Shown here: positions 8,148 to 29,332 of the stretch, in pieces
Layout of the letters: each line of letters opens with the position of its first letter
Position numbering within the stretch: position 1 is the first letter of the stretch
Assembly (NCBI GenBank): GCA_034620365.1
Contig: JAQGEQ010000206.1
Location: 271,504-335,503, forward strand
Direction: 5' to 3'
From: Pegea sp. RAD2-039
Lineage: Eukaryota > Chordata > Thaliacea > Salpida > Salpidae
DNA length: 64,000 nucleotides
Notes under the pieces: model-generated
Told to the model about the DNA's origin: nothing
Seen by the model: the letters and a program-made list of their open reading frames with translations, nothing else
The model's database searches: none
Translations under genes and position numbers: made by a program

Positions 8148-11100
8148 ATGGAAGAAAACATTGTTGTAATTTATCAGGCTAATTATGAAGACAAGGATAT
8201 TATGAAAAAATTAGATAATTTGGGCAATAGTTTATCAACAGCAGTTAATTCAAGTAAATCTTTTTATTTATTTATTTACAAATATTTTTAGGTGAATTTA
8301 GTTTTTTAAATTAAGCTCAAAAATTTGATTATTCTAATTTATTTAGATAATTAATCAGGTAATGTATGTAAATATCTACTTGAGTATTTATGAATCATCT
8401 AAATTTAATACTTGTTGGATCTTATATAGATTCTTATCAAATTCTAAAAAAATGTTGTTTACTTTTTAGCGTTTGATAGAGTGAATTTTCAGAAGTGGAA
8501 TAGCGTAAAAGTTACTTTTAAAACTAAAAAAGAAGCAGTTGAAAAGTTGAAAGCTCTGGTTTCAACTGATCAAAGTTCTTTAATTGAATTGGGAATTTTA
8601 CAAATAAAAATTGGAAGTAAGTTTACTTAAAAGTTTATGAAATTATACAATTAATTTAATTAATCTTGGCATTTTAGTTGGTTGAAGAAATAAAGATTCT
8701 TATATATTTAATTAAACAAATTTTTCTTTTAATATTTATTGATATTTTTATTCCTCAATTTTAGATGAAGTTATAGACTTGACTAATCCTGAATCTAACT
8801 TCAGTATGCAAGGTAATTAGAGAAAACAATATTCCTAATTTATTATTATTATTCCAAATTATTTTTTATAATTACTAAAAACAAAAGTTGATTTGTGACA
8901 AGTAACCATAGATTGAAATTTATTTTTCTTGCAGCACATAAATAATATCTAAAAATAATTTAAACTTCCTGTTCTAAATTTAGATTATATTTCAATTAAA
9001 GCTTGATAACTAAAACAGCAAATTTTTATTGACTTTTTAAAAGCAAATTTCTTCACATAACATCAACATCATATTTTTAGCTGGGAATCAAACCTCATCA
9101 ACTGGCTCGCCACAATCTCTTAATCAAAGAAAGCGAATAAGGAAAAGATCAAAAGATAAACCACCAGTTGATAGACAAGTAAAAGTTCCAAAAAAGCAAG
9201 AGAACGTTGTAGTCTCTCAGCAATATCACCAACAGCAACATGCTCCACCGCCAGACTTGAATATTAATATGAGAAGCAACAGCGGAGACCCCTGGTTTTC
9301 AGTTCCACAAACTCCCCAACCATCGACTCCTCTTTCTCCTGATGTAGATCAAATCATGTCAGAGATATGTACACCAGAAACTAACCAACAGCAGCAACAG
9401 GGGAACCCTGAAGATGATTTAATGTCTGTGCAACTACAAAGCTTCCACAGTGGTCAGAATCTATCAACAAGCTCTGATACAATGATTGATCAGTTTTTTG
9501 GAGTTGATCAGTTTGATTTCGACATACAAACCAGCAACTCTTTGAAACAGCAGAACAATCTTCGAGAGGTTCCGAATCCGACCACCTTAGCCGACCCGAA
9601 TCATGTGTTTCGAAGTCCTCAACAACCTGCTGCGTCTCATTTCATCACTGACAACTCAGGTGAGAGCAATATGAAGTTAATTGGAAATATTCGTTGAGAG
9701 GTTTTTGGTAAAGTTGATTTTTGCTGACTGTTCACAGAAATTTTCTGTTTCAAATTTAAACAGTGAAAAATAGTCTCATTAATCAACTAATTTATTGTCA
9801 TTTGATATTTTCTTTTCAATCTTTATGCTTCAACCATCTAACAGAAAAATTGTTTTTTTAGCAGCTTTCAACCAGAATACTTTCAACTCTGTTCAAAACT
9901 TCCAAATGAAAAAACCCATTCAACAACCACAATACATCACCCAGAACAGTGAACAGCTCCTACGACAAAACGATCCACAAATCAAACTGGCAACCAATCA
10001 AAACGCTGCAGTGTTACGACAACAAGTAACAAATGGGACCTCATCTCATGAAGTCCAACGTATCAATTGGAATAATCAAGATATGAACAAGCAATTCCAC
10101 AACATGCATCACACAGTAAACAACTCTAACGCTTCCTTTGTCCTCAACCAACAACAACAGCAACAGATTGTTGGAGGAGTTGACAGCTTAAACACACTAC
10201 AAAGAAATCACATCCAACAACAACAACTGTTCCAAGATAACAATAACAACCAACAAGCGTATAAACAACAACTACAAGCGATTGATAAACGATCTAACCC
10301 ACAACAACCACAACACGGAATGTCAGTAGTCAGTCCGTTACTCGTTGATCTGTTACGTAATGAGACTGATAACCCTAGTAACGTTCTACCTGCGATGCCT
10401 GTGCCGTCACCTGGTTCCAACCCAGCTAAACCTAAACGGAAGCGAACTCAACGTAAGAAGAAGGTAGTGAAAGGCTCGGCAACTCCTGTGCTAGCTGAGA
10501 CGATACTGACTTCTCAAACACCTCAACAACAATCAGTTATGAAGAATTATCCGCAAAATATGCAACATAACTACCCACAACAACAACAACAACAGCAGTT
10601 TGTACATGCCGTGTACCAACCGTCCCAACAAATGTTAATTACTCAACAACCATCTCAAGTTGGTCCAAATCGAATGTTGGTTTCTCAGCAAGGTAGGAAT
10701 CCAATTCAACAGAATACGATGGTTACTACAGATGACTTCAAACAAAATATGGATATGAAGCAAACAAATATGGTTATTACTTCAGATGTGGGTCAACAAT
10801 TTACAATCCCACAACAACAAGCTATTAATCAGAATGAAATGATGGCTAATCAGCCTGTCCAGCAACAAATTTGTGGTCCAACCACCCCTGGTACTTACGA
10901 CCCATACCGTCAACAACCACCAACTCCATTACCAACAGCAGATGGTCAGCAACAACAGTTTCAAAACAATTATTTCGCAAATCAACAACAGTTGTTGAAT
11001 GTCAATAAAACAAAGCAAGGTTTTATCAACAACCAAATGGTCCCAAATATCAACAACAACAACAGTAGCTTACTGCCGCCACCTAGTGTTGGAGGTGATG

Positions 11101-12752
11101 ACATAAAAAATCATCAAATCTACAGCTCACTAGGAGCTGCTAAAAAGAGTCATATGATTCCTAGCATTAGTTGGAAGCCTACAGGCGCCGTAAAACCATC
11201 GGAGTTTTCCACTGGAAAGTGTAGTATCACACGGAAGGAAAAATGTAAACCTTCAACAAAGGTGTACGATATAAAAATCTGTCTTAACCAACAGCTGGAT
11301 AGTATAAGAAGCCAGCTCCAGCTTCGTTCTAATCAGCATAAGAAGTTAAAAAATATACAAACTAAAAACAACCAACAAAATAAAGCCAAGTCAAAAGCTG
11401 CTTCTATCAATCAGAAGAAACAACAACATTTATATCAACAAGTTACTTCTAAAGAACCTCAGCAAGCTATTTATCAACAAAATCAAGCTCACAATCTACA
11501 ACAACGACAAATACTTCAACTACCTGCTATGCAACAACATGGTATACATCAACAAAGAGTTCTACAACAACCTAGTATGTCAACTCAACAACAACTAGTT
11601 CATTCAATCCCACCTACTCCTCATCAAATGAAACAACATCTACAACCTCAATTAGCTCAACAGAACGCTCAACATTATTCAAAATCGATACAACAGAAGC
11701 AACAAACGTATATACCTCGTCACCAAATGCATATACAACGTCAGTTGATGATGAAACAACAAATGATTCAACAACAACAACAGCAACAAACTTGTGTTCA
11801 ACAAGCAGTTCAACAACAACAACAACGACCCAATAGTCGTCAACCATATATAACATCTCTTTCTCCAATGCAAGATCGTATGTCGGCCACTCCAAGCCCA
11901 AACTTATCTATCCATCAAGGACCTCAGTTAATCCATTCCTACTCACAGTCAAGATCTCCAATGCCACATCACAACCAGAAATCGAATCTAAATGTAGGCC
12001 CTCAAGTGGTTCAAATGCGCCAACAGCAGAATCTACTCCGTCAACCTCTAACTAATGAAATAAAGCAACGAACGATAGTTGGAACCAAGATACCTACCAA
12101 TATCAATTCGTTCCCTGGTAACAACCAGCAAGCAAACGTACCATTTAATCATCCAGCTGGTGTTAGTATGCAGCCTCAGCAGCAGTGGAACTCTTTGTAT
12201 GGAGTTAGTCATTACCATAGAAACCAACAGCAACAAGCACAACAGCAATTAAAAACCTTTTCAACTAATCAAACACAATACTTTAATAAACCACAAACTC
12301 CAGTTCACCAGCAACCAGTTCACCAACAGCAGCAACCAGTTCACCAACAACAACCAGTTCACCAACAGCAGCAACCAGTTCACCAACAGCAGCAAGCAGT
12401 TCACCAACAACAGCAACCAGTTCACCAACAACAACAACAACCAGTTCACCAACAGCAGCAACCAGTTCACCAACAACAGCAACCAGTTCACCAACAGCAA
12501 CAACCAGTTCAACAGCAACAACCTGTGCATCAACAGCAACAAGTACAACAGCAACAACAACCAGTTCAACAGCAACAACAGCCAGGTCACCAACAACAAC
12601 AACCAGTACAACAGCAAGCAACACAACAGCAGATATCAGTCATGAACACCCAATTTACAGAAGTCACCTCAACAACCAACCCAGCAGTCTCATCACCATT
12701 TCCTTCAACCATATCAACAACTGGTTCCAGTATCAACCAGACAACAGGCTAA
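8148..12752 (+). CDS. NCOA6: NCOA6-like nuclear receptor coactivator (ASC-2/RAP250), 5 exons
   Basis: Coactivator that links nuclear receptors to a KMT2-type (MLL3/4) methyltransferase complex in vertebrates. Proposed exons: 8148-8253, 8470-8616, 8765-8812, 9081-9659, 9862-12752; phases agree and give 1,256 aa (human about 2,060). The N-terminus (MEENIVVIYQANYEDKDIM, then the KVTFKTKKEAVEKL region) fits the conserved NCOA6 N-terminal putative nucleic-acid-binding region. At about residues 453-459 the motif SPLLVDLLRN contains LxxLL and closely matches the first NR box of NCOA6 (SPLLVNLL), followed some 30 residues later by a lysine/arginine stretch (KPKRKRTQRKKK), as in the vertebrate protein. 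Most of exon 5 is low complexity (Gln, Pro, Asn), with a PVHQQ repeat near the C-terminus. No second LxxLL box is obvious. The family call rests mainly on the N-terminus and the NR box. Confidence 0.85.
12299..12620 (+). repeat. PVHQQ(Q)n coding minisatellite in NCOA6
   Basis: About 16 tandem units of 15-24 bp built on ccagttcaccaacagcagcaa, encoding PVHQQ with 2-5 glutamines, degenerating to PVQQQ and PGHQQ at the 3' side. The unit length stays a multiple of three, so copy-number change keeps the frame. The long leucine/valine ORFs on the opposite strand (12261-12626) are only the antisense reading of this array. Confidence 0.95.
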
Positions 12753-15660
12753 CTTTCATTAGTGACTTGTATCGAATCTACAATGTGTATTTGAAGTGTT
12801 GATATCATCATCATCTTCTTCTTCATTTCCTCTTTTCAAAACACCCACCCAAACTCGAAAGTATTTTCAATCTCATTTGGTTAGTTCAGGTGTGACTTTT
12901 GTATATACATTTTTAGGTATTTTTCAACTCTTTCTTCGTTTTCTTGTATACATTTTCTCTACTCTTTGGCGTTCTCTCCTAGTTCTATATTGGATGAGCT
13001 TCTATCAGATACGCTTACTGGTTTACTGAGGATTTTTTCGATTGGTTTTCTTGATGATTTCTTCACGATCTTGAATGTCAATTTTTAAATTTAATTTCTG
13101 ATAGATAACTTTCAATCTTTTTTATCAGAATTTCTGTAATCTTATTAAACCATCAAAACTCTTTGATCAAGAAAACAGAATTTGTTTGAAGAAATAGAAA
13201 ACAAGAAAACCAATTATTTTTTAATCTATAAATGATGTTGAAGACTCCTTCAAACTTTTCTTCTCAGATTTTCATCAACATCTCTTACATATATTCCGAA
13301 ACTTTTCTGAATATTTATGTTTAAAATTTCAACTACATCTTTTGTTTGAATCATTTAATAGATTAAGGAGTTAAACATGGTTTGCTAATTCAATATCCGG
13401 TGATTCAAAATCGAATCAGAAGCAAAGCACAACAGAAATCGTATCATTGTTTAACGAAGAATAAAAAAATTAAAACATAAACTTTGATTTTTTATAAGAA
13501 ATTGCACTAATAGAAGTTATCAAATCAAAATCTAGATGAAATTAGTTAGTTGAAGTTAGATAGAAGGAATCCAGTGAGTGTTTAAGAACTCTCTGTTTGG
13601 TGGCATGTCCCAGTGACATGGGACAGTGACATTAAAGTCCATGGACTATAGGTTTTCTATCTAAGTTTAATCCAATAGCATTTACTTCTGAAGCGACCAC
13701 AAGGGTAGTCTTATTTCGAAAATATGCTTTTCGCGATCGAAGTATGACGTCATCTAGCGCGATGTCTCGTACCTTTGAAGATGAGATGGAATTCAAACCA
13801 CCTGGTGCAGAGCGCAATAGATTAGAAACCAAATCTTCAAACCACTTGACTATCTTTTAAAGTCTACTTCAGTAGTTTGCCACTAAATTAATCAATTTTT
13901 TTTCTACTATGAACTTGAAACAACGATTCTTGTAGCTTTTAATTGAACAGTTTCATGAAATCATCAAAATAGAAATTTATTAATTCAATTATGAGTTTCA
14001 AATGAACGTCACTACAAACGAGCGTTACGTGATGGCTTATGTGCTAAAATAATAAACAAAACAAACTTTGCTGCATTTTAGTTTTAATATTTTTATTATT
14101 TGATTTAAGTTCTTAAAGATCTTTCTTCTAAGATTAAATTCTCATCAAATAACTTTATAAAAAGAAAATTTGGTGATAACAGCTTGAAATATTTGTAGAA
14201 CTGTAAGAAATTATATGAAAACTAACTTATAAAGTTTAGGAAATACAATAGACAAATAAATTGTTGTGACTTTCATTCAAAAGTTTTAAATTAAAATAAT
14301 ATTTATTCAATACATGAATGCGAGTGACAAATTGTACATCTTTGCTAACAAACCAATATGAGCAGAAAGATAATGAAAAGGTCTCAGTAGAAACACTGCA
14401 GAGGCATAAGTAAAATATAAATTGTAAATCAAAAATCTAATATAACAAAATAAATGAGAAAACTGAGAGTTTAAGGAAATTACTTAAATCATAACTTTCC
14501 AAAAGAAACTTTACATCTTTTTCAATTTAAAAGCTAAACTAATTTTTTTTGTACGACTCATTATAAAAATTGGTAAAATTTTCGACTATTTTTAGTAAAT
14601 AATTTTTGAATTTAATTATAGAGTTACATAACATTAAATATTTGAAGAAAATATGAAAAAAAAAACATTACTTCACTAAATAATCGTAAATATAATAAAG
14701 TATAAGGTTAAAATGAGTTTATATAAGATTTTATGTATTATTTAATTATATATTTTGTACTAACGTGATATCAGTATTAAGTCAAAATATTATTTGATTA
14801 GTTAAAAAAAAAGTTATCTTAAAAAATACAACCTTGTCAATGTGAAGAGTAACTTTTTTTGTTACTAAAAGTTATTCGACCCAGCTGCTTTTCAACTGCC
14901 CCGGTTATATGTTATAAACAAAAAAATATTACTTTTAACTAAATTAAAAATCATCTTAATCAATGTAGTTGACTTGAAAAGTAACTAAAATATTTCAGCT
15001 TTAAGACTAAACCTAAGCAACAACTGTTTCTACTACCTTACAAATAGTACTAATTCTGAAAACCAAGTATAATAATTGAGAAGAAGTATAGTTAGAGAGG
15101 TTGTCGTAAACTGAGAATAAATCTTAAGTGCGTTTATCATCACAAATTTACAATAAATCATTAAATTGCCCATGCAGCTTAAGTTAGTTTTTCGAAATTT
15201 GTCAATCTAAATTGGTATACAAATTTAAAAAGCTTAGATTTTTCAATATATTTTATAGTTTAAAGATTGATTAAGAATGTCTCAATTATAATTTACTATC
15301 TAATTCATTACTTGGTGATAGTTTTCTAGGATTTCAAATAACAATTTTCTATAAATAAAATTAGCTGTAAACCAATCATTTGCATATTTATTCAGATGTT
15401 CATGACATCTATTTTATCTTTGTTCAAAACATAATTTTCTATTTCCTTTTCACAAAATAAAATCAACTTCAAAAAATAATTGAATTCTTTCCCATTCAAC
15501 CTACAGTATTTGTTAGAATTCTTCAAGTTACAAAATACTTGAATAAATCTCTCAACAATTTTTGATAGCAAATTGAGAAACACACTTAAAAAATAAAATA
15601 TTTTATAGAATAAAAAACTTGGCATTTTCAGTATGAGTTTAAAAAGTGCAAATAAAAAAT
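12753..15660. other. Convergent intergenic region between NCOA6 and NPHP3
   Basis: Both flanking genes end here, so it should hold two 3' untranslated regions. No conserved coding exon is apparent. The exception to the AT-rich background is an island at about 13590-13860 described separately. The ORFs at 12796-13029 (+) and 15392-15625 (-) have no recognisable domain and AT-driven composition. Confidence 0.5.
13590..13860. other. GC- and CpG-richer island with hairpin, CCAAT and CRE motifs
   Basis: In an otherwise very AT-rich intergenic region this stretch contains a 7-bp inverted repeat TGTCCCA/TGGGACA (13606-13612 and 13619-13625, 6-nt loop), the palindrome GTCCATGGAC (13637-13646), a CCAAT box, CpG-containing words such as TTCGCGATCGA and one TGACGTCA (13745). 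A 66-codon ORF runs on the minus strand (13632-13832) but matches no family I know. It could be a cryptic promoter, an unrecognised RNA gene or a repeat copy; I cannot choose. Confidence 0.35.
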
Positions 15661-18600
15661 CTAAGAAATCGAAAAAGTTGACTTTGTGGCAACTGATACT
15701 CCATTCATACTTTCTTTATAGGCTTCTGCTGCTTTTTCATGGTCTCCTTTTTGATAGCTACAATTAAATGAAGTCAATCAACTATCAAAATATGTTTGAT
15801 AACTAACAGCAAAAGTGCAATGTTGCGAAGAGTCTGAACAACTTGATGACTTGCATCACCATAAAACCTCCGATAAATCTTTAATGCTCTTCGATAAAGA
15901 GGTAATGCAACATCTAAACTCCCATTCTCACTTTCACATACGGCTTGATTCAACTGAAACAACTTTTATCAACATCTATATCTACATCCTGAGATTAACG
16001 GCACCAGGGCATTGGCTAACTCTGGTGTCTCCTCTTCACTCTTCTGATGTTGTATCTTGACAACCTCTGAGTACAGTTCCGAAGCTCTGACCAAGTCCTT
16101 GTTCTTCTTACACAACAGGGCCAGGCTCTTCAACGCTGCTAATACTGTGACGTCACTACCTCCTAAAGTTTGCCTAAGTAAAAATCAAGTCTTAAGAGCT
16201 TAAGATGAAGAGAGAAGACAAGGACACCTAATAGAGAGCGCACGTTCCATGTAGAGGACAGCAGAAGCAAGTTTGTTCTGTTCGGCGTGAACTAGTGATA
16301 AATTGTAGTAACTTTGTGATAATTCAAAATCTTTTTCATCTAAAAGTTCTTCTCTCATCTTTAAAGAGCGAAGAAAAAAGTCTTCGGCTGTTCTGGAAAG
16401 ATGACGTCACAGAAATTCGAAATGATTTTGAAACTTACTTAAAGTTGTTTTGTAAATGATTAACAACTCCCAAATCATTGAGGACTTTTGCAACTTCCAA
16501 CGAGTCTTCATCTAGAGTGAGACCTTCCAAACTAAAAGTCTTTCTTCTCAATCGTTCAAAACTCCTCTGAAATTATCCACAACATCCACAAAGAACCTCC
16601 GAGATCAGATCTCTTACCGCATTTAACGAAGGACTTCTTCTGTAAATCTTCATCATTCTTGAATGCAAACTTCCCAGATCTTTGCCACTTTTTCGATTGA
16701 TCCTAATGATTGAAGAGATCTCTTGGGCCACACGATAGTGGTACTGACCGGCAACTCCTTCCACTAACTCCAAAGCTTGTCTGTTGGTCATCAACCACTG
16801 GTCACTAACCACTGACAACTATTAGGTGTACCTGAACAAGGGCTGGGCGGTGCTAGGTTTGCCCCATTGAACATAAACACACGCAAGGTGATGTAGAGAG
16901 TCTGCAACATCCGGATGATCTGGATCTAAATGAGTCTCGCTGATCTCTAAGGACTTCTGCATCGATGAAACTGCCTGTAACGTCAAAATCAAGATTAGCG
17001 CGCATTGAGAGGTATTTAATCAAGGGCACCTCTTCAATAAGACCCAGTTCAGATTGGAACCTCCCAAGTGATAAGAACATGTTGGAAACCTTCCTCATCC
17101 CCACATCATCTTCTTCTTTACTCACGATCTTCGATTCTAATTTCTTTAGTTCGTCATGGTAACGGCTTCCACTGGTCAGTTTGTCCTCATTCAAATAGTC
17201 CAACAGGGCCACAAGTTCACTCACTCTGCCTCTAAAGTCACCATTTTAAGGTTGAGGATCATGGTCAAGCCCTGGTACCTAGTGTGCATGTGATGGAGTA
17301 ATTTTGGCGAATAAATAATTTCGAATAATCCGTCGCGGTCGTCTAGTTGATGTAGTAACCATGGTAACGTATGGATGTTGCGCGGAGTAAAGATGTTACA
17401 ACTGGATCTTATTTGAGAGATCATTTTCAGATGACATCTTCGTTTGTGAGTCTCGTTGCTGACGTAGAATTCATAGATGACGTCAGAGACCTACAACGAT
17501 CCAATCAAGGAAGAACAAATTGATGATGTGATCATTTACCTGGGAGTTATGTGCTTTATAAAATCCTGCATCTTCTTTCAGAACGAACAAGTGAAGCAAC
17601 TTGTTCAGATGACTAAACCATCGTGCGTTTGTCAGTTGTGACGTCAAAAACAAGAATAGTTCCTTCTCTGACAAACCGTCACGTGAGCAAGCAACAAACT
17701 GATGAAGAAATTGATGAAGAGTTGATGACGTCACTTCAGTGCTTACCTGTAAGATGGATTTCAATTGGTTTCGATGTTCTCGATTTTCAGATCGCGCTTC
17801 GATTTCGCGTAGCGTCACTCGATACAATTCGATGACGTCACGAGTTTTGAGTGCTGCAGACCAAACAGCCTCAGAAACCTGGTTGGTGGACACACTGTCG
17901 AAAGAAGAAGATAACCAGAAGTTATAAGAAGAACGGGAACCAACCAGAGCGCGAGACGAGAAAGAAGTTTGCTATAAAGTGGATCATAAGTGGAAGCGTC
18001 GCGACACTGCGCTGTGACGTCATCACGCTACAACAATAACAACTATGAAAATTAAGTGGTACTGGGACATGCATACCATTTGTGGTGGTAATTGTTGGAC
18101 CAGTTGTCGGACAGAAGCAGCTGAAAAAGGTTCTAAATGGAGAGTGGGCCAATGTTGCCAGACTTCTGGACAGTTGTCACTGGTCACTGAAATCACGACC
18201 CTTACACCAACATGAAGGGGGTCTAGTAACCACTGAAAGTGGATAGGTGCGTCCTATAGGACAACACTAGTCAAGTGACATCATTGATGACGTCATCAGA
18301 AGTGACCTTGACGAGATGCAAGGAGTCGATGACCATGACAACGCGATTATTCAATCTCGCTGACAACTGCTCCAACCACCTCGGGAAGTTCTCGCGTAAT
18401 CTTGTGACGTCATAGCTAGCATATGAGCGAAGAGGTGGAAGCGATCCTAGAGGTAGACGATCAACTAGTTGTGAGAGGAGACGTCTGAAGATCAAAAAGT
18501 GAAAGATCAAAAGATGTAGTAAGATCAAATCTCACCGGAAGATGATTACGGGTTGAACATCGAGAGATCCTGTTCCTGTCACGTGATGCTGAAGCACTAT

Positions 18601-20983
18601 GACGTCAGAGCGGTTTTCTCGAAGCTTGTGTACCCAGCTGTAACCAATTTGCATGATGACGTCATCAGTGGTTACGTCATAAGTGACCTCGATAGCAGCA
18701 GTGTCTTCCCGGATGCGTTTCCTCCGGACACTAGGAGCGGAGGAACAGGTCCTGGTGACGTCACTATCTCATCGAGACGATCGTAGCACTACAGAAAGTA
18801 GGTTGAAGTAGTGACGTCACGTGTTGATGACGTCACCTTCTCGAATCCGAGAGGCGGTGAAGAGCGGAACTGAAACGCGATCTTCTCTTGCTGCATCTCA
18901 AGAGTTTCATCAATTGGGATCTCCTGGATACATCGGATCACTTCTTCTTCTTCTTTCTTGATTTTGTTCTTCTCTATTGAAATGCGGAATGCAAATTTCT
19001 ACAGATGAGAGGATTGGTAATAAGATGAGGAAGAAGTCAGGGAGTCAGGACTCACGAGTCGGATGGATTTGATGATCTGAGAGATGAGAAAGTGATCCGG
19101 AGGTAGATCAGAGGAGAAGTCAAAATACTGCTTGACTTGACTCTTCATCTCAACCTGCATCTTTTTTGCTCCAGAGTTAATCTGTGAAGGCTGAGCAGAA
19201 GAAGATCAGAAGAAGATCAGAAGAAAGGAGTCAGTTATCTGATGTAAGGACCTGTTTGCAGCATAAGAAGCTTGAGATGTTGTTGGAAGGTTCTGTGATT
19301 CCCTGATTACATTCAGCAGCTGTGAAGCTGAAAAAAGATATTGGGAGTTAATTAAAGATGCAAGGAGTGAAAGAGCCACCTTCCAAATTTGGTGCCCAGA
19401 AAGCAGATGAAGATGTCGGATATAGAAATAGAAAATCTGATGTCTCTTTCAGTATTCTTCAGTTTTAAGTCGCTGACATCTTTTGTACGAATACGATCAT
19501 AGGAAGTTGATCCTTTAGAAGATCTCAGTTTGAAGCAAATAAAAGAAGATGAAAAGAAGTACCAATAAAATGAGAGATGATTAAAAAACGATCTTCCATT
19601 TCACACAGATCTTCAAGATCTTTAATCATTGGATTGCTTAAGAAGCTCTTTGCATCATTGATACAATCAGGAGATGAAGAAATATAAATCCTAAAAACTC
19701 TTTCAGTAACAATGATAACAACAAAGAGTGCTTCACCTCAATAAGTTGCTCTCTTCTATTTCAAAGACATTAGAAGCAGGTAATATCTCAGACAAGTTGT
19801 TCGATGACGTCATCCACTTCTCACTAGATAGTGACGTTGTATCAGCGATGTCTTTGGAGGTTTTCTACAGAAGAGTTTGAGTAGATGAAGATAATTGTAA
19901 TAAAATCACTGACTTGTGAACTATCATTAAAATGTATCATCGATGACTCGAAAAGAGATGCTGCTTCACTTTCAGGAGCAGCCCACCATTCAGCTAGAGG
20001 AGACGTTGATCCAACTATAAGTGGATTAAAAAGATGATAAGAGATGAGATGAGTTAAAGCCACTCACAGTTAAGGAGTGAATTATCGACATTTTGAAAGT
20101 TATGGTCATCCACCATCACTATTCCCTGAGCTTCAAGGCGATGAAAGTTACTCTCTAGCTGTCTCTTAGTCTAAAGAAGATGTTTTGAATAAAAAAGAGA
20201 GATTATGTAGCATCACCTGTAGTATAGCTTGAATTTCACTTTCTTTAGTTTCCCGGAATATTTTAAATTGTCTTTGTATTTTCTCTCTGTTCTAAAAACA
20301 AATTTATATAAATTTGTCTCAAAAACTTTTTTGTTAAATCAAACTAACTTGTTCTAAGGCAAAAGCTCTTTCAGCAGCTTCGTGGCTGTTAGCAAGAGCG
20401 AGGTCTCTCTCACTACGAAGTCTTTGGCACTGTTTGTTGAGAGCTTGTAGTTCTGCACGTAATCTTTGGTTTTCTGTTTCTAATTTTTCTTCCTAATAAA
20501 AGAAGAATTAAGAGGAAGCTAATAGAAAGATGAAATCACTTTTCTTTTCAGATTTTGTATCTCTTGTTCCAAAGTGACTTTTTGTGTTTTAAAATCTTGA
20601 CGTAAATTTTGATCATTTAAATTACCACCGTTTATTGAAGGTGATAAAATGTTAGGATCAAAAGACCCTGATGATCTTAAACTGGCAGATTTTTTCACAC
20701 TTCCCTCTAGATGCTAAAAAATTGATATTTTCACTGAATTTCATGAAAGTTTTATAATATTCTTAAATGAACTTTTTAATAAAATAGATTAAGTATAAAA
20801 ATTAGTTTATTAGGATATAAATAGACATTTCAAAACCTTTGGACGAAGCTTTAATTGGTTAAATATTGATGGTTGGCTGATATTTCTTTTCATTGAGCGT
20901 TGATTAGCTGAAGGAGCTTCATCAGCAATATTCATTTCAATATTATCATCTTTATTTCTAGCTACAGAGCCTGTTGTTCCCAT
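15661..20983 (-). CDS. NPHP3: Nephrocystin-3 (NPHP3), complete, about 28 exons
   Basis: Ciliary inversin-compartment protein. Exons in coding order: 20983-20837, 20713-20540, 20492-20349, 20291-20217, 20170-20068, 20014-19910, 19851-19737, 19690-19563, 19472-19380, 19327-19252, 19181-19056, 18998-18837, 18788-18688, 18637-18536, 18484-18307, 18232-18077, a less certain exon near 18042-17930, 17894-17747, 17698-17540, 17490-17279, 17225-17030, 16974-16832, 16780-16597, 16566-16439, 16392-16228, 16173-16005, 15953-15808, 15757-15661; about 1,280 aa (human 1,330). MGTTGS at the start keeps the N-myristoylation signal (Gly2, Ser6). A coiled coil follows ([28 protein letters not shown]), then an NTPase: Walker [17 protein letters not shown] (exon 13), Walker [10 protein letters not shown] (exon 15), [15 protein letters not shown] (exon 16). 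The C-terminal TPRs include [20 protein letters not shown] and [17 protein letters not shown]. The exon 17 boundaries are the only weak part. Confidence 0.94.
16567..16596 (-). other. 30-nt intron in NPHP3
   Basis: Between the exons ending RDLISE and starting [11 protein letters not shown] the only non-coding bases are 30 nt, beginning GTTCTTTG and ending ATAATTTCAG on the minus strand. Reading through meets an in-frame TAA, so it must be removed or the gene is broken. It is close to the smallest spliceosomal introns known in animals. Its neighbours are 46-55 nt. Confidence 0.75.
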
Positions 20984-22004
20984 TTTTTTTATAATTTAAA
21001 ATATAATTTCTACACCTGAAAGAAGAAAATACATTTGTTATGCAGAATTTGGTTTTGATTATAAACATTTTTTATCGCGAGGTAAACAGTATGAATAAAC
21101 AGATTTTTTTGAATCCTATATTCTTTAATATTTTCTAAAAATGTGACAAAGGAAAACAAACACAATTTGGCGTTATGCAAATATGTTTTGGTTTAAAATT
21201 TGATTTGACCTTATTTGAATCTGTATCAAGCATTTAATTGTAAAAATAACTATATTTACAATTATTTGACAATAAATTTTCATTCAAAGAAGTAAATTTT
21301 ACCTTTTTAAAGCAAATGTTTAGTTACGTTTTGTTTAAAGTATTTCTTATTTAGAATAAATCTGTAAATAAAGCTGTTAGTATAAATTTTCTAATACTTA
21401 AGCAGGTGTCAAAATAATAAAGAAGTTCAAATAAAAATACTCAGACTTATGTAGTATCTAATTATTTCGATTTTATAAACTAAAATTCGTTGAAATAAAA
21501 TCGCTTAAGGTTGAAGTTGATGCTTTCTAAACTTCTATATTTCATACAAAAATTTCTAGTTTTGTAATTTTCTAATTCCTATCGTTTCTAGTAGAATAAT
21601 TTTTGTTCTTTATGTTTAGAAACTTTAAAAAGCCTTATAAATGTGAAACTTTTACCACTTTTAAATCTAAAAATATTCCTTGTGCCAGAGTAAACTACAC
21701 TAATTAAATATAACAGCTATTGAAGAATAGTTTTAAGTTTTTGCAAGTTTTATATGCGCCAGCAGTATATTTTGAATGCTTATAAACATCATTAACAGTA
21801 ATTACAATTAAACTTTGACATATTTAAATCTTTGAGTAAATTTTAACAGCGGTTTATTAAGATATTTGATTTTTGAAAAAAGTTTTATTGATAAAAATAT
21901 TTCAGATGTTCAATGGCGATAAACGATTTTATAAAGATTGATTTGAAAGTAGTTTACAAAATATACATCTTAATCAATTTCTTTCAAATAAAGATGATCG
22001 ATTT
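20984..22004. other. Intergenic region 5' of NPHP3
   Basis: About 1 kb of AT-rich DNA between the NPHP3 start (minus strand) and the stop of the docking-complex gene. It should contain the NPHP3 promoter. I see no TGACGTCA copy here, in contrast to the bodies of both neighbouring genes, and no X-box that I can defend. Confidence 0.4.
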
Positions 22005-24237
22005 TTATCGTCGTTTTATTTGAGTGGTAGCTGTGACGTCATATCGACTTTGACCATGACTTTTCGAGGCTTCTGCTTCTTTCTTCTCGACCTGAAAGTC
22101 AAAAAAGTTGACAAATCGTTCACTAAGAGACATCTTAAACATACAGAAGCAAGGACTTTCATTTTAAGCTCTTCAGAAGTCAGTGGATGAAGTTGCTCAT
22201 GCTCTTCATCATCATCTAAATCAGGATCTCTATCAGATGGATCAAATCCCGTTGATGGAGGATCCACAGTCAAACGACCAACAACCTCCTCCTCGGGAAC
22301 CTTACCCACCATTTTCCGAGCAGTTTCATACGGATCGTAAGACTCAAAGTTTTGCTGAAAGATACATGTCAGTGATGACGTCACTGATATATGACGTCAT
22401 CATCACCTGTGAATCGACGTAAGCGCTCGATAGAATCAGTTGATTGGCTCTTTGCTCTATTAACCCGAGAAACATCATGACGTTGTCATCATCAACTTGA
22501 ACACCTTCACCAAGCTGTTGCTTCTGATGACGTGATATCAACTCATCCTGATCCGCGCTGCTCCCTATAATCTTATGGAAGAGTGATCCAGCAGCAAGTT
22601 GTAATTGACCAAGGATCTTCCCGACTCTCATCAAGACCTTCTCACTTGCTTCTACATCCTTTTCCACTTGCTCTAACTCTTCCTCCATTTCTTTTACAAG
22701 CTTCAACCGACTCTCTTGCATCTTCACATCTTCATCTTTGTACTCTTTGATATTTGCATGTATCTGTAATCAGATCATTTGATGACGTCACATCCGCGCA
22801 TGCGTCGCGCACCAACCACTCGAATTTCTTCGCCGAGCTGTTCAATGGAGTTGTTCTGTTCATTGACGAGATTGAAGAGCGCGAAGTTTAGATCTTCGAC
22901 GCGAATGAAATTGGTCACGACTTCGTTGACGTCATCTTTTCCGCTACAATCGACGATGGCGCTAAAGGCGCGTTCAAAATCGTCAATTTTCTCGTCTCCT
23001 TCTCGCTGTGTTTCCTTCTCTGTCATGACAACGACAATACTGATGACATCATCGCTATGATGACGTCACTAACCCTTCTTTGTTGCGTGATAGGTGATAG
23101 TTCGGGTGACTTCTTTCGCTCTCATAAACTCGCGGCGTTTTTTGTCGTCATCAATAATCCGCTGCAGCTCCTATATATATAATCTTGTTCGATGATGACA
23201 TCACGTGATGACGTCATTGACTGACTCGAATATCGCCGTTAAAGAGCTGAATATCTTTTTCGCATTTATCTTTCAGTAAAAACATTTTGTTATGAGACTC
23301 ATCACGTGCTTCATACGCAGCGGTCGATGCTTCGGTGACGCGCGCTACTTCTTTTTTCAAATCTTTCAATGCCTGTTTCGACAAGTTGCAAATTATCGCG
23401 ACGCGTCACTATGACGTCACCTTTTCGTTTCGTCGAAATTTGGACAAGTAGTTTGATTTATCGATGCGTAAGTTTTCGATGACGTCACGCTTCTTGTTGT
23501 TTTCAGCACAGATTTTGTTGAACTTTTCAGTAGCCTGATTATTATGAATATTAAATCACGTGATGATGACATCATAGCAACCAGTTACCAAGTGAAGCCG
23601 ATTGTCAAGCGTTTTACGCAGCTTATCGGTATCTTTGATGAAATTAGAAATCTTTTCTTCACCTCCAATTTTCTTCTTCTCCGAATGAATTTTTTCGAGA
23701 AGATATTTAATCTCTGATTCGATCCTCATCTTCTTCTGCATCTCTTCATCAATTTGATCCGACAGCAGCTCTGTTACACCAACCACGGCATCAACTAGCA
23801 AGACCAGGGACACTTAGTGGACACACTTGCCTCTTTCATCGATTAAATCTTCAATCTTCTTCTGATGACACTCATCTCTTTTTTGATTCTGATCACTTTC
23901 AGCTAGAAACAATTCTTTTTCCATTTCAACTCTTTCAGACTTCAACAGATCAATTTCTCGTCTAAAGTGAAAAGATGAAGATGTTACAACTGATTTATGA
24001 AATGAATAGCAACAGACAGCTGTCTTCTTATCTGTTCCTGTGATTCAACAGTGTAATCATGTCTATCGACTTCCATAATCCGATATTTCTCTTTAAGATT
24101 TTTCAGTTCCAAAGCTGTAAAAGTGCAAAATGTAGGACTGAGAATCCAGAAGTTGAAATCTTACTTGAAGTCTCCATATCTGCATCACTCGCATCCGAGC
24201 GAATAGAATTCAAGTTACGAAAAGAATTTCTTCTCAT
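22005..24237 (-). CDS. ODAD1: Outer dynein arm docking complex coiled-coil protein (CCDC114/CCDC63 family), 11 exons
   Basis: Member of the coiled-coil family that anchors outer dynein arms to axonemal doublets (CCDC114 = ODAD1; paralogue CCDC63). Exons in coding order: 24237-24165, 24114-24018, 23961-23831, 23794-23589, 23534-23421, 23372-23226, 23170-23074, 23019-22817, 22763-22407, 22354-22157, 22091-22005; total 1,710 nt, 569 aa, near CCDC63 length. Diagnostic stretches: LKNLKEKYRIMEVDRHDYT with EESQ-type follow-on near the start; TAAYEARDESHNKM; ELQRIIDDDKKRREFMRAKE; NFALFNLVNEQNNSIEQLGE; FLGLIEQRANQLI; and C-terminal NFESYDPYE and PLTSEELKMK. Nearly the whole protein is predicted coiled coil. 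The third intron appears to be GC-AG. The last exon (VEKKEAEASKSHGQS onward) was placed by phase and is less certain. It lies 1 kb upstream of the NPHP3 start on the same strand. Confidence 0.88.
23795..23830 (-). other. 36-nt GC-AG intron
   Basis: On the minus strand exon 3 ends AGAG and is followed by GCAAGTGTGTCC, ending GTCTTGCTAG. Only this junction joins the frames (AGA G + TT GAT). The site AG/GCAAGT is the classical GC donor consensus. A GT donor three to four bases on gives the wrong phase. Confidence 0.7.
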
Positions 24238-25617
24238 TTTGATAAAACTACTCAAAGTATCTCAATCCTAAAAAATTTTCTTAATTTTAAAATGAAGTTT
24301 ATTTTTTGCAAAAATTTAATTAAAGTTGGGAAGATACTTTCAAAGATTATTTCATTAAGATAAACAAATCTCAATGTTTGTTGATATAACTTTACTATTT
24401 GTCTATTTTTTTCCAAGTAATTTATATAAACTTAATCAAGTAAGATATCAGCAACTTATGAATTAATCTCAGAGTCCAAAGATTTTCTTGATATTCCTAA
24501 AATAATTAAACTTGCTTATAAAGTTTTTAAATAAATCTAAACATCAGATTCTAATTAAATATGAAAATTCGAGTTATATTGATATCATTCTAGTTTAGAC
24601 ATATCTAAAAGTAAATTTAAGTATTATATTTTGCTTATCAATTATATCTCATCAAAAACTTATTTCAGATTAAATTTCAAAATTTTCATTTTTTTACATA
24701 ATTATTCACAAAATATATTTCTGGAGCTAGATAAAACAACATTTTCATTTACAAAGTAAAATTTTTATTATTCTAATGATTTAATGAAAACCATAAAAAG
24801 AAATCGAAAAATACTAAAAAGTTTAGTGAAATCGCGTTTAAGTGTAAGTACACATATTCCATGACAACAAAAAGATATTTAAATCTAGCTGTTATACAAT
24901 TTTTGATTTGCTGTTTGCTGGATCGTCTTATTTCAAATTTTGTTTTAAAAACTTTTGATTTATGCCAACATTTAAACTAAAAAGTGTAAAAAAAAATTAA
25001 CTGCAAAGAGCTTCGAGACAAACGTTTTTAAACCACTAAGGTAAGCTCAGAAACAAATGATCGATATATAAGTTTGTTGCAATTAAAAGTAATTAGAAAT
25101 TTTTAATAAATAGAACTGAATATGATAAAATCGTCTCAATGAATATTTAAATCTTCAAATTTTTCCCTTGCAAAATTATCAGCATGAAAACTATATTTTC
25201 ACTAATAGATCTTTTCAAAGTGATGTTCTAATTAGCTAATTATCAAGAGTAAAAGATTATAAGTTTTGTTGAAAGATATACGGAAACAGACTGCCAACTA
25301 ATTTTCTATTTAAGACTTAAATGTTGGCTCAGTTTTGACAACTGGCTCGACTATCAACTTATTACGTTGTCAAGGAAACAATGACTTTATCACGAGCTCA
25401 ATTGTTTCAAATTTAAGTTTCTTTACAAACGACAAATTTTTTATTAGATTTTATTTAACAAGTTTCTCACGATTTAGTGACGTCATAAGAAGATCATTGA
25501 GACCAAAGAACAATTGATAAGCGCAAACTTGATTATACAAAACTATGACGTCACCAGCGCAAGAAACACCCGAAGTTTTTACAAGAACTGGTTGAGTATG
25601 ACGTCATAGAATGAAGA
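24238..25617. other. Intergenic region between ODAD1 and ELMO
   Basis: About 1.4 kb. The part near the ELMO stop holds three TGACGTCA copies (25478, 25546, 25599), whereas the rest, presumably the docking-complex promoter, has none. The short plus-strand ORF at 25335-25517 has no recognisable content. Confidence 0.4.
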
Positions 25618-27894
25618 TCAAAAAGCAGCGAGAGCAAAGTTGTAGTCAGTGGGAAGAGGAGGAAGACGAGGAGGTGATTCTGGAATGGGAATATTTTCGA
25701 GTTCTAAGAGTTGAAGTTTCATCTCCAAGTTAGTGATTCGGTCAATATCCAGTTGAAATTGACGGCTGTTGAAAGTGCGGCCCATCAAGGCATTAATACC
25801 ATCTGTCCACATATTCCAGACCAATTCAGTTGGCGCCACAAAATGTAAGACTTCATCTGGGTCGTAGGATAAGCTGAAGATCAGATGATGGGGCGCTTTT
25901 TGATTGGATCTCGCGTTTTTGAAGTGTTGATTGTTTTTACCAGTGGCCATTTCTTTGATGTTTGCAACTGCAAGGGTGTGAGGAAGGACTGTTGTTTGGG
26001 ATGGTTCTATGTTGTCCTCAATATCACCATACTGTAAATATTTACCATCGGGAGACAAACGACAAAGCCAAGGGGTCTTATCTCGTCTCTTGCTACCCAA
26101 TTTGTGGAAAACAGACCCATGTTTGAGATAATTCAATCTTTGTTGCTTGATGAGATTAGTGATTGATGGAAGCAGGCGATCACGAAGCTCGATTACTGGT
26201 TTAGCTTTCAAATAAATATCATCTTGATCTACTAATTGTTGCTCGCGTTTTTTCAAGATAGCGTTGTATTTAGGCAGCTTCTGTCGAAAAGTATCCATAT
26301 TCTGAGGGTTCATGTTTAAACTACTTTTTATCTGATCGCAAACCACTCCGAGCACTTTGTCAAAGTCTTCACGAATTGCGTTCATTTCTTTCCATGTCTT
26401 GTTGAAGAGAATGATGCAGATACAAAAGAGCTCTTCGACAGCGCGATCGTGAGCGAAGAGCAGCGGGAAGAATTGTTGCCCAGCCTCATCAGGAGGTTCT
26501 CCAATGCGCAAGACATCACAGATAGCGTTAGTGACGTAGATAGCGGATTTGACAAACGGGCAGTTGTGTTTTGTCTCACGTGAGTTGTTCTCGAGAACTA
26601 ACTTGTTAAAGTTGTCTTGTTGGGTTCGAGCAAAATACAACATAAAACTCAAACCCAAATGTCCGTTCGGATTAAAGTCCTGAATAGGATCAGCTAGATT
26701 TGTGAATCCTAATTTATCTAAATCCACGGCAGTTAGATTTCCTCCTTTTTTGTGGTCTTGATTCAAAGGTTCTTCAGCAAGTGAACAAAACTCTGATAGA
26801 TCTTTGAGCTCCGAAGCTCCAGCTTGCTTGATTTCTTTCCCATCAGCTAATAAGTTAAGTGAAAGAACTTGAAGTACATAAAGTTGATGGGCCATCTCAT
26901 CGCTTACATGATTGCTACCTCTAATTACATTATTCATAATTAAATTCCGAAACTGCTTCTGGGTCATTGCATCTGAAATCTGACGGCGTCCAGATAGCTT
27001 CGCGCGATTTGAAGGGGCTTTCATGAACAAGCTGTTAATTAATGCCATTGTGCTTACTTGTACTTCCATTTCTGGGGTCTGAATATGCGTCATCACGTTA
27101 CCAACCACAATGACGTCACTAATAATAGTGTATAAGTGGTCGCTATTGACAACAGCAAGCTCAAGAATTCCAAGTGCGCATTGAAGTGTCATCTGGCTAC
27201 TGCTTGATTTAATTTCTGTTTGTTGACAAACATAACGAATAAAACCATCAGTTAGCACAGGTGATAAATCATGTGGATGATGATAAATCAACTCGAGCAC
27301 CGCCTTTAACATAAACCCCACATCTTTCTGGGGCAACTTTTTACTCTCAACTTGTGCGACTAAAAATTTCAATCCATTTTTTGAAATGAAAATATCAGCA
27401 AAAGTTGGATCTGATGATTCTTTAATAAGTTCTTGAATAGCTAAGTCTCTTTTGTTGCTGGGTTGGTCGGGTTTTAAACTTTTGATGATGTCAGTGGCCA
27501 CTTTTAGAGGTGCTATGACAAGACGAAGCATGTTCCCATCTTTCATTTTAGTTCGATTGGCTTCGGTGATGTATAAGCACTCTTTAGTATCTAAATTTTT
27601 TAACGCATACTGCCCTACAGGCACTTTCATTCGCAAGCAGAAATCATCTATATTTTTTTGAAGAGTCCAATCCTGATTAAAGACATACAGAGTCTTATGA
27701 GCTTGATTAGGGATCTCAATTCCAACTTTCAGGACATTTTTAGGATTTGAAGTTGACTGATTATCAATTGTATTGATTTGAATACCTCCAAACTTTTCAT
27801 CGGAAAATGAGAGGCGATTTACACTTCCAGCAGTCAACTGGTCAATATATGGACCCACAGCTGACATACTAGCCGATGATGTGACACGGCTCAT
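25618..27894 (-). CDS. ELMO: ELMO (engulfment and cell motility) protein, intronless
   Basis: Scaffold that binds DOCK proteins to form a Rac exchange factor for phagocytosis and migration (ELMO1/2/3, CED-12). A single open frame of 758 aa from ATG 27894; human ELMO1 is 727 aa. The N-terminal armadillo-type region begins near VLKVGIEIPNQAHKTLYVFN and continues through FLKAVLELIYHHP-like helices. The central ELMO domain includes HLGLSFMLYFARTQQDNFNK and the following FVKSAIYVTNAICDVLRIGE. A PH-like domain spans roughly residues 560-690 (WLCRLSPDGKYLQYGD; LVWNMWTDGINALMGR). The C-terminus is proline-rich (PIPESPPRLPPLP), suited to the DOCK SH3 domain, and ends DYNFALAAF. The in-frame TTG before the ATG is not needed. 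The gene has no intron although nearly all its neighbours are intron-dense. Which vertebrate paralogue it corresponds to cannot be said. Confidence 0.96.
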   Translation of the reverse strand: MSRVTSSASMSAVGPYIDQLTAGSVNRLSFSDEKFGGIQINTIDNQSTSNPKNVLKVGIEIPNQAHKTLYVFNQDWTLQKNIDDFCLRMKVPVGQYALKNLDTKECLYITEANRTKMKDGNMLRLVIAPLKVATDIIKSLKPDQPSNKRDLAIQELIKESSDPTFADIFISKNGLKFLVAQVESKKLPQKDVGFMLKAVLELIYHHPHDLSPVLTDGFIRYVCQQTEIKSSSSQMTLQCALGILELAVVNSDHLYTIISDVIVVGNVMTHIQTPEMEVQVSTMALINSLFMKAPSNRAKLSGRRQISDAMTQKQFRNLIMNNVIRGSNHVSDEMAHQLYVLQVLSLNLLADGKEIKQAGASELKDLSEFCSLAEEPLNQDHKKGGNLTAVDLDKLGFTNLADPIQDFNPNGHLGLSFMLYFARTQQDNFNKLVLENNSRETKHNCPFVKSAIYVTNAICDVLRIGEPPDEAGQQFFPLLFAHDRAVEELFCICIILFNKTWKEMNAIREDFDKVLGVVCDQIKSSLNMNPQNMDTFRQKLPKYNAILKKREQQLVDQDDIYLKAKPVIELRDRLLPSITNLIKQQRLNYLKHGSVFHKLGSKRRDKTPWLCRLSPDGKYLQYGDIEDNIEPSQTTVLPHTLAVANIKEMATGKNNQHFKNARSNQKAPHHLIFSLSYDPDEVLHFVAPTELVWNMWTDGINALMGRTFNSRQFQLDIDRITNLEMKLQLLELENIPIPESPPRLPPLPTDYNFALAAF

Positions 27895-29332
27895 CAAGAG
27901 GAAGGTCCTTAGGTTATTTTGATGATAAAAAAGTTGACAAAAATCTCTTTAGATAGGAAAGGTAGATAAAAATCTGAGAGATTAAATAAATTAAAAATGA
28001 TTAGTTTAAATCTTTCTGAATTTATTTTAAACTAAATAAAATAATCTTTATTTATTATATTTACTATCGTAATAATTTTTCTATAAAGTTTGTATAATAA
28101 ATTCTGTATGAAATAATTTAAATAAAAGGAAAATAAATTATTTATCTTTAGATAAAAATTTATTTATCTATTTGAATAAAATATCACTAAAAGTATTTAT
28201 GAAATACAAAAAAATTAATATAAAAAGATAAAAATTTATACAATGAATAAAAATTTATTTAAAGAAGTATTTATCAAGTTAGATAAAAAAACTACCAATT
28301 ATAAATATTTATTTATAAACTAAATGATATAAAAATAATACTTAAAATCAAAATATTAACTTCAAATAAAAATTTCAAACTAAGTTAAATCTTTAACAAG
28401 GCTGTTTAGAAATATAGAAAATACAAAAAACTTTTGAATAATATTTGGACAAACAAAATTTGTCTACTTCCTTTTCTGAGGTCATTTCTTAAACAATTTT
28501 TAGATTAAATCATTTCTCATTTCAGTTAATCAAAGAAAGCAAAGTGTAAATAGAATAAAATGGGTTTTCTACAAGTTCACGTCAACTATAATTTTTATAA
28601 TTGAAATCGGAATTTGCCATGAAATAGTTAATTTTTTAATGACCTTCTCCTTTGGAAGAATGAAAAATGAAAATTTCCACTAGTAACTAAAATTTTAAGA
28701 AAATAAAATATTTCTCATAAAAAAGTGTTATATAAAAATTCGTAACATTATTCCAAAAGTTTCGTGAAACAAAACATTTCTGTTAGAGCTTGAAAAATTA
28801 ATTTTAAACTTTTTATGATTTATTACTCTCTTAGAATTAGGAAAGTGTTTCTTTGAGAAGCACCATTAAAAGTATTTCAGATTTTCATAACTTTTTACCT
28901 GAATTTTACAAGTCAAGATGATAAATTAACAGAAACTAGTTTTGCTATTTAATGGCGTTCTAGTGTTTAACCTTAAGTTACACTATAATATCATCTACCT
29001 TCAAAAACAATTTTTTGTCAGCATATACACCGCCGAAGATATTTTAGACACCATAGCTTATTTACAACCTAAGTTGTTAAGTTTCTGAATGGTCTTTGGG
29101 AACATAAAATAAGTTCCTCGCCATACTAATATTAAAATAGTTAATGGGTCTTATTTTATATTCTGTAAACTTTTAAGCTAAGAATGAAAAAGCCATTTAT
29201 TAATTCAGTTATTGTTAAAATAGCAAAACCAACACAACTGACTTTTGATCGTTTTTATAATCTTGTGAGGCAACAAACAAAAATACAAAATAAGTATTAA
29301 ACATATTAAAAGTTTTCTTAAAAATTTAGAAG
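27895..29332. other. Intergenic region 5' of ELMO
   Basis: About 1.4 kb of AT-rich DNA with no supported exon. It includes the presumed ELMO promoter. Confidence 0.45.

Follow-up and report, generated by a model that had tools for sequence, protein, structure and literature searches.

An exact palindromic octamer enriched throughout the genome of Pegea sp. and concentrated in gene bodies

Genes of the window and copies of the octamer

We analyzed the octamer TGACGTCA in a 64,000-nucleotide stretch of contig JAQGEQ010000206.1 of Pegea sp. RAD2-039 (the window, to which all positions without a contig or locus name refer) and in the genome assembly to which it belongs (105,744,746 bases in 387 contigs). 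A preliminary description of the window had counted at least 31 copies of this palindrome by eye and reported them as enriched across two ciliary genes. Exact matching returned the same 31 start coordinates and no 32nd copy in the window. It also reproduced the two reported clusters, namely 12 copies within 17478–18835 (NPHP3) and nine within 22034–23487 (ODAD1). The names proposed for these genes are supported by Pfam: the matches to NPHP3_hel and ODAD1_CC lie marginally above the cut-offs, and that to TPR_NPHP3 has an E-value of 2.4e-8 yet stays below its cut-off. NPHP3, ODAD1, ELMO and a PR-domain zinc-finger gene identify the host as an animal, with short introns that are mostly GT-AG. The three genes around the copies are as follows.

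15969–20983, minus strand: NPHP3 gene region with introns of about 50 bp (Pfam NPHP3_hel and TPR_NPHP3; gene models)
22016–24237, minus strand: ODAD1 (outer-arm docking complex) gene region (Pfam ODAD1_CC; gene model)
25618–27948, minus strand: ELMO gene, a single open frame of 776 aa (Pfam ELMO_ARM, ELMO_CED12 and PH_12; match to human ELMO1)

The copies were assigned to exons and introns either by manual reading or by a small custom gene finder, which was trained on few frames, retrained on its own output and is therefore rough. They are listed below without strand.

13745–13752: outside predicted genes (exact match, gene finder)
16148–16155: NPHP3 TPR exon, S-D-V-T (manual)
16402–16409: NPHP3 intron (manual)
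17478–17485: NPHP3 exon, S-D-V-I (manual)
17639–17646: NPHP3 exon, L-T-S (manual)
17726–17733: NPHP3 intron (manual; exon by gene finder)
17833–17840: NPHP3 exon, R-D-V-I (manual)
18015–18022: NPHP3 exon, D-D-V-T (manual; intron by gene finder)
18288–18295: NPHP3 intron, flanks TGA..TCA (manual)
18405–18412: NPHP3 exon, Y-D-V-T (manual)
18600–18607: NPHP3 exon, S-D-V-I (manual)
18657–18664: NPHP3 intron, flanks TGA..TCA (manual; exon by gene finder)
18756–18763: NPHP3 exon adjoining the P-loop, V-T-S (manual; intron by gene finder)
18812–18835: two copies (18812, 18828) in one 48-bp NPHP3 intron, that at 18828 overlapping the splice donor (manual; exon by gene finder)
19805–19812: NPHP3 exon, M-T-S (manual; outside the coverage of the gene finder)
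22034–22041: predicted ODAD1 exon (gene finder)
22376–22399: two copies (22376, 22392) in a predicted ODAD1 intron (gene finder)
22783–22790: predicted ODAD1 intron (gene finder)
22927–22934: predicted ODAD1 exon (gene finder)
23061–23068: gap of the ODAD1 model (gene finder)
23209–23216: edge of the ODAD1 model gap (gene finder)
23412–23419: predicted ODAD1 intron (gene finder)
23480–23487: predicted ODAD1 exon (gene finder)
25478–25606: three copies (25478, 25546, 25599) just 3′ of the ELMO frame, which ends at 25618 (exact match)
27111–27118: open ELMO frame, S-D-V-I (alignment with human ELMO1)
37634–37641: isolated, flanks not of the R..Y type (exact match)
38323–38330: isolated, left flank not R (exact match)

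The last two copies, isolated and outside the R..Y flank type, may be chance occurrences.

Enrichment across the genome

As an unselected sample we used the window together with 12 loci (L002–L013, 117 kb), about 181 kb in total. The loci were drawn at one fixed offset on other contigs, where 12 of 20 positions were usable and the rest too short; L001, fetched because of two abutting copies of TGACGTCA, was excluded from the count. The sample holds 64 copies of TGACGTCA, against 1.04 expected under an order-1 Markov model and 0.93 under an order-2 model. Among all 256 palindromic octamers only TGACGTCA and TCACGTGA (12 seen, 1.04 expected) rise above threefold, AT-only palindromes such as AAATATTT reaching about 2.6-fold. 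The whole genome contains 27,792 copies of TGACGTCA (263 per Mb) and 969 of ACTGCAGT, the same letters reversed, which amounts to a 28.7-fold excess; for TCACGTGA the corresponding counts are 4,614 and 237, or about 19-fold. A palindrome favored genome-wide, one of several options left open in the preliminary description, is thus the right one, and the comparison with other palindromes that it had proposed as a check (all 256 in the sample, TGACGTCA and TCACGTGA with reversed controls in the genome) gave no refuting result. TCACGTGA is also enriched in kilobases devoid of TGACGTCA (8 vs 0.77 expected). At 27 sample sites its flanks are mainly R..Y.

The copies are strongly clustered: for the first 100 sites listed on contig C1, 38 of the 99 gaps are shorter than 1 kb, compared with 6.2 by Poisson. 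No helical periodicity of the spacing was detected (R at most 0.16 over 60 spacings up to 80 bases).

The enrichment is nearly confined to the exact word. With at most one mismatch, TGACGTCA matches 64,917 places in the genome. The CpG-transition words TGACATCA and TGATGTCA contribute 11,070 of these, or 5,535 per word vs 1,336 for the reversed control, whereas the other 22 one-mismatch words average 1,184 each vs 1,154 around the control word, a mean obtained by subtraction from the one-mismatch total and not word by word. In the sample, the density of the CpG-transition words tracks that of TGACGTCA, being 0.06 per kb where the latter is absent and 0.34 per kb where there are at least two copies. 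TGACGTAA and TTACGTCA are likewise commoner where the word is dense (11 in 44 kb vs 4 in 166 kb), so the core allows some departure. If the copies were old, neutral remnants of a burst of insertions, a broad halo of decayed versions would be expected. An exact word without such a halo fits an equilibrium bias, a very recent origin being the alternative way to lack one. An allelic comparison of two pairs of duplicates, 98.4% and 98.6% identical, showed one differing site, TGACGTCA vs TTACGTCA, a sample without power. Short exons that are identical, or stretches with 98.4–98.6% identity, were seen at C21:1488155 and C37:190728, C8:452001 and C8:968141, and C22:11501 and C22:34001, so haplotigs or recent segmental copies may be present in the assembly.

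Clusters in unrelated genes and in local arrays

The suggested enrichment in ciliary genes did not hold up. Clusters were also found in spectrin-repeat, RabGAP-TBC and AGC-kinase genes, and we reject the association; the connection with cilia is peculiar to this window. Another of the opened clusters lies in an ABC-transporter gene (Pfam match slightly below cut-off), and three of the ten frames scanned in the opened clusters, one each in L014, L015 and L018, have no Pfam match. In the unselected locus L012, eight copies of TGACGTCA fall in a gene with a C2 domain, similar to BCR on inspection by eye. RFX X-box copies in gene bodies were too scarce for comparison.

Spread of a repeat family, another of the earlier suggestions, is likewise not supported as a general cause. 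The sole Tandem Repeats Finder row within 13.5–27.5 kb is a 30-base array without TGACGTCA, and no match between sites at different loci is longer than 48 bases. Shared homologous flanks were absent apart from local arrays, although a short match to another part of the sample exists for 116 of 189 sites at E <= 1e-3. The arrays that bear the word include minisatellites (in L001 and at C8:368047–368263) and a tandem gene array on contig C50. Related 17-bp minisatellites occur in L001 (1–830), L024 (1654–2156) and L019 (104–566), all of them also word-rich loci; L001 has further arrays of about 24 and 31 bp that bear the word, the 24-bp one also containing CACGTG.

The gene array (C50:76000–326000, locus L007) comprises at least 41 units, all oriented alike and 73–100% identical to the query unit. 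Many of them carry TGACGTCA at the beginning of an exon and again within it. Site columns are conserved at 0.957 (n = 16) and the remaining columns at 0.850 (n = 238); where the second site is missing, TGATGTCA mostly stands in its place (13 rows). This conservation lends weak support to constraint on the word.

Placement relative to genes and base composition

The gene finder calls some short introns exon, and 22 of its 75 exon chains were dropped to remove overlaps between gene models on opposite strands. With these models, predicted exons of the unselected loci (19,779 bp) contain 19 copies, predicted introns (4,358 bp) 12 and the remaining 156,933 bp 33, so that predicted genes make up 13% of the bases yet hold about half of the copies. 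The preliminary description had exons and introns sharing the copies in roughly equal number. Copies do occur in both, but not equally per base, the predicted density being 2.75 per kb in introns vs 0.96 per kb in exons. In a second set, chosen for word density (L014–L025 minus the duplicates L021 and L023), the counts are 61 in 21,675 bp of exon, 41 in 6,714 bp of intron and 42 in 28,111 bp outside. Some of the copies outside predicted genes may lie in missed exons or untranslated regions (UTRs). Independently of any gene model, 1,115 copies lie on the intron side within 12 bases of the donor-like motif GTRAGT vs 429 on the exon side, the latter figure including a tandem array on contig C8.

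Word-rich segments are also richer in GC and CpG. In 1-kb bins with 0, 1, 2, 3 and at least 4 copies (n = 166, 26, 12, 12 and 20), GC content with the word masked is 0.272, 0.323, 0.369, 0.405 and 0.403, and the observed/expected ratio (o/e) of CpG is 0.62, 0.73, 0.90, 0.87 and 1.00. Part of this trend reflects the higher GC content of genes, but it recurs among introns: those of 42 word-rich predicted genes have GC 0.385 and CpG o/e 0.75, vs 0.321 and 0.56 for those of 30 word-free genes, in a comparison in which strands are not resolved and the word-free set may include transposon frames. At 9783–12752 on the plus strand lies a long glutamine-rich open frame of 989 aa that is GC-richer than its surroundings, lacks TGACGTCA and has no Pfam match at E 0.001.

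Consequences for protein sequence

Manual reading of NPHP3 gave nine exonic and six intronic copies, introns being the smaller part of the gene. The exonic copies had been described as D-V codons; this is true of six in NPHP3, the other three encoding (M/V/L)-T-S, and none lies in the frame that contains a TGA stop. The copy at 27111, in a conserved protein region of ELMO, encodes S-D-V-I in place of A-Q-E-I of human ELMO1. Since the alignment is free of gaps, this copy arose by substitution, with no indel. Insertion of an 8-mer, considered as the origin, is not needed there. The NPHP3 TPR exon carrying the copy at 16148 has a weak gap-free match to kinesin light chain TPR (best E 0.0095).

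Exons of the unselected loci, with strand resolved, encode D-V-I 11 times vs 1.5 expected (reverse I-V-D, 4) and M-T-S three times vs 0.7 expected (reverse, 2), so that the excess is clear for D-V-I only. In the word-dense loci both tripeptides occur 21 times, vs 1.5 expected for D-V-I and 1.1 for M-T-S, with no reverse occurrence of either. Intron read as exon contributes to the excess. Recurrent D-V-I in the proteins of this lineage may mirror DNA rather than protein constraint.

The 48-bp NPHP3 intron at 18789–18836, delimited manually, starts with GTGACGTCA, so that word and splice donor overlap. Such overlap may recur, to judge from the predicted donors GTGACG (7) and GTCATC (4). Elsewhere in the window, the gene with a PR domain and C2H2 zinc fingers (57732–58673, minus strand) has a relative at L013 4563–5297 with 79% DNA identity, and the two possibly belong to an expanded PRDM-type family.

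An extended dyad around the core

With 63 sites folded on both strands, the base at −1 is A (0.63) or G (0.27), at −2 G (0.52), and at −3 T (0.46) or C (0.27); beyond three bases the preference is near background. When the flanks are oriented along the gene strand, broadly the same preference appears on both sides of the word, at 51 intronic as well as at 80 exonic sites. The full dyad TGATGACGTCATCA has 1,972 copies in the genome and its reversed form none. TGACGTCA is thus the core of a dyad of about 14 bp, roughly YGR-TGACGTCA-YCR, concentrated in gene bodies. Because the flanks are broadly mirror-symmetric, the word is probably read as double-stranded DNA, and from the sequence, recognition by a symmetric protein is probably a better account than a cause at the level of RNA or protein.

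Interpretation

TGACGTCA is the classic CREB/ATF site, the cAMP response element (CRE), and TCACGTGA the classic bHLH-zip E-box. The extended dyad may resemble optimal ATF/CREB sites. A Pfam bZIP_1 search of the genome gave 12 matches, nine of which we take, by eye, to be Jun-, Fos-, CREB1-, CREB3-, C/EBP-, PAR- and NF-E2-like and two identical ATF6-like sequences; L027 encodes the CREB1-like basic region and zipper. The AP-1 7-mer TGASTCA is hardly enriched (21 vs 15). Given that the two enriched words are classic sites, that bZIP genes are present and that the AP-1 site is hardly enriched, we favor weak selection for CREB/ATF-type binding in gene bodies. Our preferred explanation, offered tentatively and as something short of probable, is a weak genome-wide fixation bias toward an optimal bZIP site of the CREB/ATF type within gene bodies that are richer in GC and CpG. 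Any base change completing TGACGTCA would be weakly favored, and loss would proceed mainly by CpG transition to TGACATCA or TGATGTCA. The bias would stem from a symmetric DNA-binding protein that uses the word, the best candidate being a CREB/ATF-type bZIP homodimer for which the word would serve as a regulatory or chromatin site in gene bodies. If the 28.7-fold excess is read as exp(B), B is about 3.4 genome-wide; the 44 kilobases with at least two copies (174 vs 0.89) give about 5.3, an upper figure, as these bins were picked for the word.

The CRE/ATF identity proposed in the preliminary description is plausible and is strengthened by the flanks and the CREB-like gene. The core is that of a CRE, and the genome encodes CREB/ATF bZIP proteins, as named by eye. 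The YGR and YCR flanks are broadly symmetric but differ at −1 in introns, and may reflect the preference of a bZIP homodimer. Several observations count against the explanation just given. Known CREB sites tolerate half-sites, and here the core is almost all-or-none. The sites are spread along gene bodies, unlike promoter CREs, and 33 of the 64 unselected copies lie outside predicted genes, whose models place only 8 of 15 NPHP3 sites in the same class as manual reading. The flanks are not perfectly symmetric either: in introns A/G at −1 is 29/21 before the word vs 42/7 at the mirror position, and in exons −3 differs from its mirror in A and C. In the C50 array the two sites are intact in only 30 and 26 of 41 rows, and their windows rank only 28th and 37th of 202 for conservation.

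A drive, in which gene conversion, repair or other DNA processing favors the exact word regardless of any use to the organism, is unlikely, and of the rival explanations it survives best. The almost all-or-none core, the presence of the word in exons and the higher GC and CpG content of word-rich segments, as under GC-biased conversion, all suit it. However, enrichment of a second, different word, found even where TGACGTCA is absent, does not, and a recombination-hot allele of the M26 type, being broken, should be converted away and the word lost. The CRE-like M26 word starts meiotic recombination in fission yeast, but according to a review of M26 the TGACGTCA present in ade6 neither binds Atf1-Pcr1 nor increases recombination (PMC9775316). 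For cyanobacteria, over-representation of exceptional words other than HIP1 is discussed as a possible by-product of mismatch repair, whereas selection is deemed the simplest account of HIP1 in the same review (PMC4390886).

We consider it improbable that TGACGTCA is a modification word, recognized by a DNA methyltransferase or a restriction-like system. The palindromic core is nearly strict and spread genome-wide, as in HIP1, but a graded preference extending three bases to each side is unusual for such enzymes, and the second enriched word fits another family of transcription factors.

A signal in pre-mRNA, read by the splicing machinery or an RNA-binding protein, is more improbable still. 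It would account for the density being highest in introns and near donors and for the intronic base before the word differing between sides, although donors of the GTGACGTCA type can cause the latter. An RNA motif would have no need of flanks that are otherwise nearly mirror-symmetric on the gene strand, exons included, and 33 of the 64 copies in the unselected sample fall outside predicted genes, some perhaps in missed exons or UTRs.

Spread by mobile or tandem repeats bearing the word has the slenderest chance of all: word-bearing arrays and short matches between sites exist, but the cross-locus matches are short, the array of the cluster region lacks the word, the ELMO copy is a gap-free substitution and the flank preference fades within three bases.

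Returning to fixation bias toward a bZIP site, a broader reading is possible, though on balance doubtful. In it, one dyad would be driven into gene bodies across the genome by word-specific fixation or conversion bias, altering proteins on the way (D-V-I and, in dense genes, M-T-S), as an animal counterpart of the highly iterated palindromes (HIPs), and the gene body would form a distributed landing array for bZIP proteins or chromatin rather than having a few promoter elements. Some 28,000 copies of one word in animal introns and exons offer a gauge of how DNA-binding or conversion pressure weighs against protein sequence. They also make it testable whether the site preference of a transcription factor can shape a whole genome and whether sites in gene bodies act on transcription, methylation or recombination.

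Comparison with known systems

Among the open-access papers searched, none came up that described TGACGTCA, or any other octamer, as enriched throughout an animal genome. HIPs have been described for cyanobacteria, HIP1 being GCGATCGC, and a review discusses repair by-products for exceptional words and selection for HIP1 (PMC4390886). Like HIP1, the word studied here is a palindromic octamer that recurs exactly and, over the whole genome, far more often than expected; it lies within coding sequence and is not a repeat family, local arrays excepted. In contrast to HIP1, the host is an animal and not a cyanobacterium, the core is TGACGTCA, the flanks are graded, introns are denser in copies than exons and clustering is strong.

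TGACGTCA is among the 8-mers that rank as top predictions of conserved regulatory elements in several animal groups, according to a comparative study (PMC551538). The likeness to CREs lies in the identical core and the CREB1-like gene. The difference is that here tens of thousands of copies are scattered over unrelated genes, in exons as well as introns, and lack a broad halo of weaker sites, whereas the comparative study concerns conserved upstream elements. A third parallel is ade6-M26 of fission yeast, where a point mutation creating ATGACGT within the ade6 frame makes a recombination hotspot dependent on Atf1-Pcr1 (PMC9775316). There, too, a CRE-like word lies in a gene body, and an ATF/CREB heterodimer (Atf1-Pcr1) acts on chromatin and meiotic breaks. 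M26, however, is one created allele whose word has seven bases, and the part of that account concerned with it mentions no genome-wide enrichment, whereas in Pegea sp. an octamer recurs across the genome.

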